From positions 1 through 39,220 of the forward strand of contig JAJYUP010000016.1 of assembly GCA_021792455.1 (NCBI GenBank): DNA of 39,220 nt, read 5' to 3'. The stretch's first letter is position 1; each line of letters begins with the position of its first letter. Below the pieces are notes generated by a model that was not told the DNA's origin, did not search any database, and saw nothing but the letters and a program-made list of their open reading frames with translations. This document shows, one piece after another, positions 26,118 to 33,541 of the stretch. The stretch comes from Actinomycetes bacterium. GTDB taxonomy: Bacteria; Actinomycetota; Thermoleophilia; Solirubrobacterales; Solirubrobacteraceae. Position numbers and translations under genes: made by a program.

Positions 26118-26222
26118 TCTCTCAGCTCTTGCATGTTGTTGCCAGCGGCGCATGCGCCGCTGGCTGGTCGGGCGCATGCGCCCGACCACGGGTCGGTGCA
26201 TGCACCGACCCGGCCCTTTCAT
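26115..26222 (-). CDS. possible 35-residue leader peptide through the palindromes
   Basis: An ATG at 26222 opens a 35-codon frame (MKGPGRCMHRPVVGRMRPTS, then QRRMRRWQQHARAER) ending at TAG 26115-26117. It runs through all three palindromes without a stop because each is 24 bp. A GGAGGAG sequence abuts the ATG, too close for a good ribosome-binding site. The peptide is very basic and has no recognised family. The palindromic origin of the sequence explains the open frame equally well, so this is weak. Confidence 0.15.
   Translation of the reverse strand: MKGPGRCMHRPVVGRMRPTSQRRMRRWQQHARAER
26141..26212. repeat. three abutting 24-bp perfect palindromes centred on GCATGC
   Basis: 26141-26164, 26165-26188 and 26189-26212 are each perfectly self-complementary 24-mers with no base between them. 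Left halves are GCCAGCGGCGCA, TGGTCGGGCGCA and CGGGTCGGTGCA. The inner 12 bp are GGCGCATGCGCC twice and GGTGCATGCACC once, while the outer six bases differ but stay fully paired. In RNA they give three consecutive 10-bp stems with CAUG loops. They lie between nusG (stop 26267) and rplK (start 26103). Confidence 0.97.
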
Positions 26223-26266: not shown

Positions 26267-26788
26267 CTAGAGCTTCTTCACCTGGTCGAAGCCGACCTCC
26301 ACTGGGGTCTCACGGCCGAAGATCGAGACGAGCACCTTCAGCTTCGCAGCATCGTCGTTGATCTCCGCTATCTCGCCAGAGAAGTCGGAGAGCGGCCCTG
26401 AGACCACCTTCACCGTCTCGCCGATCGCGAACTGAGCGCGCGTGCGAGGAGCGCTCGCCACCTCCTTGTGCAGCAGGCGGTCGACCTCACCCTGAGTGAG
26501 CGGCACAGGCTCGTTCGCGGCACCAACGAAGCCAGTGACTCCAGGCGTCCCCTTCACGACGCCCCAGGAGTCCTCGTTCAGCTCCATGTTCACGAGCACG
26601 TACCCTGGCATCGTGCGCTTCTCGACGGTGACCTTCTGGTTGTCCTTCATCTCGGAGACCGATTCAGTGGGGACAACCACCTGACGCACGTTGCGTTGCT
26701 GGCCGAGGGACACGACCCTGTGTTCGAGATTCTGCTTCACCTTGTTCTCGTGCCCCGAGTAGGTGTTCACTACGTACCAACGAAACAT
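26267..26788 (-). CDS. nusG: transcription termination/antitermination factor NusG
   Basis: The 173-residue NusG has the NGN domain (FRWYVVNTYSGHENKVKQNL at the start, MPGYVLVNMELNEDSWGVVK near residue 60) and a C-terminal KOW domain (FAIGETVKVVSGPLSDFSGE near residue 120). It binds the RNA polymerase clamp and links transcription to Rho or to S10 of the ribosome. An AGGA sequence lies about 7 nt before the ATG. It follows secE after 139 bp, the common secE-nusG order. Confidence 0.97.
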   Translation of the reverse strand: MFRWYVVNTYSGHENKVKQNLEHRVVSLGQQRNVRQVVVPTESVSEMKDNQKVTVEKRTMPGYVLVNMELNEDSWGVVKGTPGVTGFVGAANEPVPLTQGEVDRLLHKEVASAPRTRAQFAIGETVKVVSGPLSDFSGEIAEINDDAAKLKVLVSIFGRETPVEVGFDQVKKL

Positions 26789-33459: not shown

Positions 33460-33541
33460 GGCGGGGTTCCCGAGCGGTCAAAGGGGACGCGCTGTAAACG
33501 CGTTGGCTCTGCCTTCGCAGGTTCGAATCCTGCCCCCGCCA
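33460..33541 (+). tRNA. tRNA-Tyr (GTA)
   Basis: The 82-nt class II tRNA folds cleanly. The acceptor stem is GGCGGGG with CCCCGCC, and the discriminator is A33541. The anticodon stem ACGCG/CGCGT holds the loop CTGTAAA with anticodon GTA at 33494-33496. A long variable arm and a T-arm with GGTTCGAATCC follow. The genomic sequence lacks the 3' CCA (ACTG follows), so it is added by enzyme. It stands alone between the divergent GTP cyclohydrolase gene and the LOG-family gene on the opposite strand. Confidence 0.97.

Follow-up and report, generated by a model that had tools for sequence, protein, structure and literature searches.

Tandem CATG-centered palindromes between nusG and rplK probably form one copy of a REP-like DNA element dispersed in the genomes of a family of Solirubrobacterales

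The analysis presented here indicates that a tandem array of perfect palindromes located between nusG and rplK, in a 39,220-base stretch of Solirubrobacteraceae DNA (the window, meaning the whole stretch that was analyzed), is probably a copy of a REP-like DNA element that occurs dispersed in the genomes of a single family of Solirubrobacterales. Each copy consists of perfect palindromes, mostly three to four, strung together in the order A-B-C-D, most of them exactly 24 bp long and with CATG at their center. Copies are found for the most part downstream of stop codons, with no fixed orientation, and in some cases within genes, in frame with the coding sequence. The arrays are dispersed, keep a fixed unit order and are balanced in orientation; at nusG-rplK they are limited to one clade, their arms covary under near-strict Watson-Crick pairing, and some of them are inserted in coding sequence. 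The element is an unusual kind of small repeat of soil bacteria.

Direct reading of the letters at positions 26141-26212 confirmed what the earlier note had claimed for this region, namely three abutting perfect 24-bp palindromes with no spacer, each centered on GCATGC. Unit 1 (26141-26164, unstranded), assigned to class A by a hidden Markov model, reads GCCAGCGGCGCATGCGCCGCTGGC, that is, GCCAGCGGC-GCATGC-GCCGCTGGC; unit 2 (26165-26188, unstranded; TGGTCGGGCGCATGCGCCCGACCA, or TGGTCGGGC-GCATGC-GCCCGACCA) and unit 3 (26189-26212, unstranded; CGGGTCGGTGCATGCACCGACCCG, or CGGGTCGGT-GCATGC-ACCGACCCG) both belong to class B. The class-A end has the trinucleotide GTT (26138-26140, forward strand) at its foot, corresponding to a boundary motif that is weakly marked in the flanks of oriented arrays. 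Both flanking genes, named by Pfam, lie outside the element on the reverse strand: the stop codon of nusG (26267-26788) is 54 nt from the array, and the start codon of rplK, encoding ribosomal protein L11 (25678-26103), is 37 nt from it. Perfect palindromes with arms of at least 9 bp are otherwise absent from the window, and ten first-order Markov shuffles of it yielded 0-2 of them, without any reaching arms of 12. The hexamer GCATGC shows no enrichment in the window, with 17 occurrences vs 20.8 expected. Relative to the corresponding arrays of two relatives, unit 1 has the same letters in G014, unit 2 differs at three pair positions from the G014 unit and at two from the G021 unit, every one of them two-sided, and unit 3 shows one compensated difference from G021, its core being damaged in G014. 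Folded computationally as single-stranded RNA, the nusG-rplK gap reproduces the three 10-bp stems with CAUG loops that had been claimed for the mRNA (-80.1 kcal/mol, z -4.85, with 0/200 shuffles equally good). Among Rfam families tRNA alone matched in the window, at a tRNA gene (33460-33541) identified as tRNA-Tyr by ARAGORN, and no family matched in stretches L320, L270, L257 or L323.

The earlier note had named scattered copies at unrelated loci as evidence against a leader, and such copies were found at many unrelated genes, both in the genome of the window and in its relatives. The window's own genome (G000; 3.15 Mb, 242 contigs, 83% complete) contains 24 pairs of GCATGC cores whose starts are 20-30 bases apart, vs 0 for a reversed control, and at six places palindromes adjoin, or nearly so, to form arrays. 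Two-core matches were present in 36 of 41 genomes (the window's own and 40 relatives); in other families of the order such matches are not evidence for the element, because they number 0-4 vs 0-9 for the control. In a sample of the class, a three-core pattern was detected in 12/399 genomes and 3/128 genera, all in the family of the window, with a patchy presence among close relatives; among the matches listed, that of G298:C67 is not palindromic. A scan of the named genome collection returned at least 118 stretches, 20 of which are flagged palindromic among the matches listed: 19 come from Solirubrobacterales (17), Solirubrobacteraceae (1) and Actinomycetes (1), and the remaining one (L073), from Bacteroidetes and with arms of 7, is of another type. 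The window array had no match among 72,556 plasmid records and the L320 array none among 50,697 phage records, and a phage or plasmid origin was rejected on these results. Viral contigs contributed 33 stretches, the one flagged being an AT-rich look-alike. No printed description of such an element was recognized among the open-access PMC matches listed or in an inverted-repeat survey (PMC13155455).

To describe the element, arrays were seeded by at least one perfect palindrome and adjoining units were admitted at 8/12 matching pairs, giving 102 arrays in stretches that total 1.35 Mb and come from 21 genomes. These stretches were mostly picked for pattern hits, and hence are no random genome sample; they include three nusG-region controls (G020, G009 and G012) and an array-free G024 stretch. 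Perfect units number three in 46 arrays, four in 22, two in 16, one in 9, five in 7 and six in 2. The 1.35 Mb hold 350 perfect palindromes with arms of at least 10 and any center, 314 of them CATG-centered, vs a mean of 7 palindromes of any center and 0 CATG-centered ones in two Markov replicates of the same stretches. Arms are exactly 12 bp long in 249 of the 314, the core is GCATGC in 261 and ACATGT in 51, and the center-to-center distance is 24 in 147/212 steps. An in-register 24-bp unit within L269:9735-9879 of G005 has the core GTATAC, a compensated change of the otherwise near-constant core, and a 26-bp perfect palindrome of a different sequence type, centered on CCATGG, lies near an array in G022 (L297:4651-4676).

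A four-state hidden Markov model resolved the units into classes A (CCGGnCGGC), B (CGGGgcCGC), C (GGCAGGGCC) and D (GGCCncGCC), which follow one another in the cyclic order A-B-C-D. The log-likelihood of the real order was -2627.1 vs -2670.0 for the best of 30 within-array order shuffles, both figures being from a rerun with equal effort after a first test with fewer restarts for the shuffles. Among the first 47 arrays, identical half-arms shared across loci not then known to be orthologous numbered 24 vs 4.3 expected from column shuffles, and half-arms with one mismatch 159 vs 55.8; eight same-locus pairs then known were left out of these counts, and later flank grouping linked a few more. 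With one odd palindrome of L297 left out, 82 of the 102 arrays could be oriented with confidence. In the A-B-C-D direction, the first unit of these 82 is preceded by G at -3 (72%), T at -2 (44%) and T at -1 (54%), and the last is followed by C at +3 (60%).

Covariation analysis bore out the proposal of the earlier note that it is structure, not sequence, that has been maintained. When 12 three-unit arrays (taken from 41 gapless ones, of D-A-B or A-A-B order, from genera g2 and g25) were aligned, two-sided changes occurred at 19 of the 30 pairs, and no pair varied on a single side; of the 360 cells, 99.2% are paired, with three unpaired cells and two G-U pairs, the latter in outermost pairs, and 0/500 shuffles reached any of these pairing measures. 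Comparison of units within the same group, paired by left-arm similarity, gave 293 compensated pair positions vs 14 inner and 28 outer one-sided ones and 13 others, counted over genome pairs that are not independent and groups some of which are paralogous. The 1544 stem pairs of the 193 units in codirectional arrays include three G-U in the sense RNA, seven A-C (each a G-U pair in antisense RNA) and 14 mismatches of other kinds, and the 1176 stem pairs of the remaining arrays include one G-T and seven other mismatches. Across all arrays, G-T or A-C mismatches on either strand amount to 11/2720, and ten tRNAs from the same stretches, used as a control, show 19 G-U among 212 stem pairs. Because G-U is nearly absent despite strong covariation, the constraint appears to act on DNA rather than RNA: together with near-strict Watson-Crick pairing on both strands, this near-absence suggests a DNA-level constraint or arm-from-arm copying, and it argues against the regulatory RNA element that had been considered plausible.

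Compensatory change is usually regarded as proof of structured RNA, and here it occurs with almost no G-U and extends into the coding frame of a gene for a tRNA synthetase. Template switching has been argued to be a source of compensatory changes (PMC8794818). On the main reading, the element would spread as DNA, and its single-stranded hairpin, with a CATG loop and a 10-bp stem, would be the substrate of a putative enzyme supplied in trans. The arms would be kept perfect by selection for the DNA hairpin and by arm-to-arm template switching during replication, which could rewrite both arms in a single event. As a bolder model, which we regard as possible but short of probable, the arrays may be a mobile element inherited by shape, in which a string of perfect 24-bp CATG-centered palindromes is conserved while the arms are rewritten pairwise, each time in one event, through arm-from-arm copying in extruded DNA hairpins; a putative enzyme would read the CATG-loop hairpin and move the string as a whole. 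If this is true, the arrays would present textbook covariation without RNA and would fool covariation tests, the missing G-U being the signature. The pairing of strong compensatory change with almost no G-U makes the arrays a test bed for the proposal that DNA template switching creates and maintains stems, as well as a warning for covariation-based RNA discovery and a lead to a putative hairpin-handling enzyme in a little-studied soil family.

The placement of the arrays relative to genes was assessed with gene calls from a simple in-house script. Gaps with an array comprise 51 codirectional, 23 convergent and 7 divergent ones, vs 491, 97 and 174, respectively, among gaps of at least 10 nt without an array; relative to divergent gaps, arrays are thus enriched in convergent ones (odds ratio 5.9, p = 2e-5), in statistics that cover at most 81 of the 102 arrays (51+23+7), the others overlapping a called gene or sitting at a contig edge. 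Between codirectional genes the A end of the array points downstream 24 times and upstream 21 times. The median distance is 24.5 nt from the upstream stop codon and 70.5 nt to the downstream start, with 39 of 54 codirectional arrays closer to the stop than to the start. Groups of arrays often lie beside housekeeping genes, such as clpX, ftsZ, rpsG, lysS and groES (named by eye from translations).

Arrays were also found in frame inside genes that Pfam identifies as leucyl-tRNA synthetase, an ABC ATPase and a pyridoxal-dependent decarboxylase; many open frames over arrays are non-genes, and only recognized conserved proteins were used. In leuS, CATG-centered palindromes are present in 4/20 loci, those of the window's own genome (L380, G000:C117), G014 (L252), G021 (L347) and, partly decayed, G008 (L381), where they occupy one variable loop and encode PHA/AHA/AHV motifs. 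The ABC ATPase gene, which its two ABC_tran stretches with ABC_tran_Xtn would place in the ABC-F group, carries an array in 6/19 loci of relatives (L244, L270, L294, L342, L410 and L412), a count in which weak matches of G006 and G001 may be paralogs. Of these loci, 14/20 for leuS and 10/19 for ABC-F were parsed, and all were then checked for CATG-centered palindromes. The decarboxylase array lies at L282:4454-4525. In the genes examined, the arrays are read as CAT-GCN or CAT-GTN, giving His-Ala or His-Val.

These observations bear on a reading in which the tandem hairpins act at the RNA level, as intrinsic terminators or by protecting the 3' ends of mRNA, with selection maintaining the stems as RNA. 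The bias toward 3' ends, with arrays close behind stops and enriched between convergent genes, would fit such a role, the RNA fold is very stable, and clusters of adjacent hairpins downstream of stop codons have been described as terminators for which poly A/U trails are reported not to be necessary (PMC8355165). We nevertheless consider this reading unlikely. G-U in the sense RNA (3/1544) is no commoner than A-C (7), against 19/212 in tRNA stems, and arrays covary almost without G-U, sit in frame inside genes and are scattered among relatives, all of which sets them apart from clustered-hairpin terminators. Arrays differ from intrinsic terminators in having no U-tract: at least five T in 10 nt were found at 2/104 array ends, and a U-tract terminator was rejected on this count. 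A terminator would, moreover, be costly at nusG-rplK, since the two genes are 0-2 nt apart in 6/18 relatives. Because arrays occur in frame inside genes, leuS and ABC-F among them, a role as strong terminators is hard to reconcile with the data, and it is unlikely that the arrays are either strong terminators or regulators of rplK.

Returning to mobility, two genomes from another genus of the family (G171 and G407) match the 72-bp L320 element many times. In G171 it matches at least six other places with 89-97% identity over 64-76 nt, and in G407 there are 39 matches to a 1261-base query, most of which, among the matches listed, are array-only and weaker; we take these matches as recent spread, in support of the dispersed DNA element. 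Relatives also differ between filled and empty sites, as seen in leuS (4/20), in ABC-F (6/19), through one change at nusG-rplK, and at a locus with arrays in G171 and G407 and an array-free site in G024. At the G024 site the flanks have diverged and no target-site duplication is readable, and array ends carry the weak motif only. The sole enzyme family searched, Y1_Tnp (PF01797), was found in 1/24 genus genomes and 1/9 others, all of them incomplete, and Y1 mobilization was rejected on this basis. Flanks of loci not known to be orthologous, in the first 47 arrays, share matches of at most 22 nt with two exceptions, a 53-125 nt stretch at arrays a26, a35 and a40 that by eye is part of a permease-like gene, and the overlapping flanks of two neighboring arrays at one locus. 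A larger mobile unit carrying the arrays was rejected, as no long common flanks were found beyond these two exceptions. The 19 groups with homologous flanks in at least two genomes, some across genera, take in 57/102 arrays, which could represent retained function or hot spots instead of free movement; part of this grouping reflects paralogy, a few groups holding two loci of one genome. Arrays differ strongly within many of these groups. Counted over stretches rather than whole genomes, copy numbers per genome appear low compared with REPs.

Copies of a REP family share sequence, which is a defining trait of these elements; the arrays show four recurring unit classes, yet their arms drift with compensation. 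They differ from REPs in being mostly exact 24-bp perfect palindromes with a CATG center and drifting arms that abut in a fixed class order, in having the foot motif GTT without an unpaired GTAG or CGTC tag, and in that the Y1 transposase (RAYT, GTAG type) was not found in 23/24 genus genomes, which are incomplete. The likeness to REP, BIME and REPIN sequences of the GTAG and CGTC super-families lies in their being small, dispersed, intergenic palindromes, often grouped and sometimes inside genes (PMC3733652, PMC3116915), and array placement resembles that of intergenic REPs, in codirectional and convergent gaps near stop codons (PMC3733652). Although placed like REPs, the element is not filed as one, because the tag and the transposase fail. 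Rickettsia palindromic elements (RPE) insert in frame. With these and with intragenic REPs the arrays share the trait of palindromic inserts within coding genes (PMC3733652), and by description they differ from RPE as tandem 8-codon units with near-strict pairing and a CAT-GCN or CAT-GTN frame. Mitochondrial double-hairpin elements and organelle palindromes of Allomyces, Volvox and Fusarium likewise consist of hairpins that are putatively mobile and have a recurring loop sequence (PMC2670323, PMC7218506), whereas the arrays are GC-rich, built of constant 24-bp units and located in a bacterial chromosome.

It is improbable that the arrays are a pure mutational relic, that is, palindromes born in place and kept by template switching alone, with neither mobility nor function. 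Template switching predicts compensated changes such as these, with few intermediates altered on one side alone (PMC8794818), and the unit whose core changed to GTATAC with compensation fits the same process. This reading, however, leaves unexplained the CATG core (314/350) and the 12-bp arms (249/314), as well as the fixed class order and the unit types common to different loci.

In E. coli, a gyrase or IHF role has been proposed for REP/BIME sequences. A comparable chromosome-structure or protein-binding site, domesticated and kept at chosen loci, would agree with the homologous loci across genera, the independence of orientation and the near-constant core of the arrays. We judge it to have little likelihood, given that the arms vary and leave little constant duplex sequence for recognition beyond CATG, and that the arrays are patchy among close relatives.

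The nusG-rplK gap was followed across the genus, in which rplK was matched in 20/24 genomes and 18 nusG-rplK gaps were readable, that of G023, which is unreadable, being outside the 18. An array is present in two of these gaps (G000 and G014) and absent from the other 16; in G021 an array lies behind nusG at a contig end, and the upstream stretch of G020, with no recognized nusG end, has none. In a nusG tree built from 19 rows, the three genomes that carry the array (G000, G014 and G021) fall on one side of a branch with support 97/94, corresponding to one change. The proposal of a leader for rplK-rplA, or of an L1- or NusG-binding element, has the position between nusG and rplK in its favor and nothing more, and it is very improbable and was rejected, since 16/18 readable gaps, an absence that the earlier note had named as refuting, lack the array, whose three occurrences at nusG-rplK fall in one clade, and the same kind of array sits at unrelated genes and inside coding sequences. 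Arrays also depart from structured regulatory RNA leaders in conservation upstream of orthologous genes, in G-U tolerance and in Rfam match. The array is probably not a switch for rplK, and any effect on rplK expression would be incidental.

Two minor features were noted in array-free gaps. That of G002 (L209) contains a 14-bp ACATGT-centered palindrome, which may be a relic, and the gaps of G002 (L209), G022 (L213) and G007 (L217) have in common, by eye, a different hairpin-like stretch around TGTGC-GCACA and repeated GCGTCC motifs.
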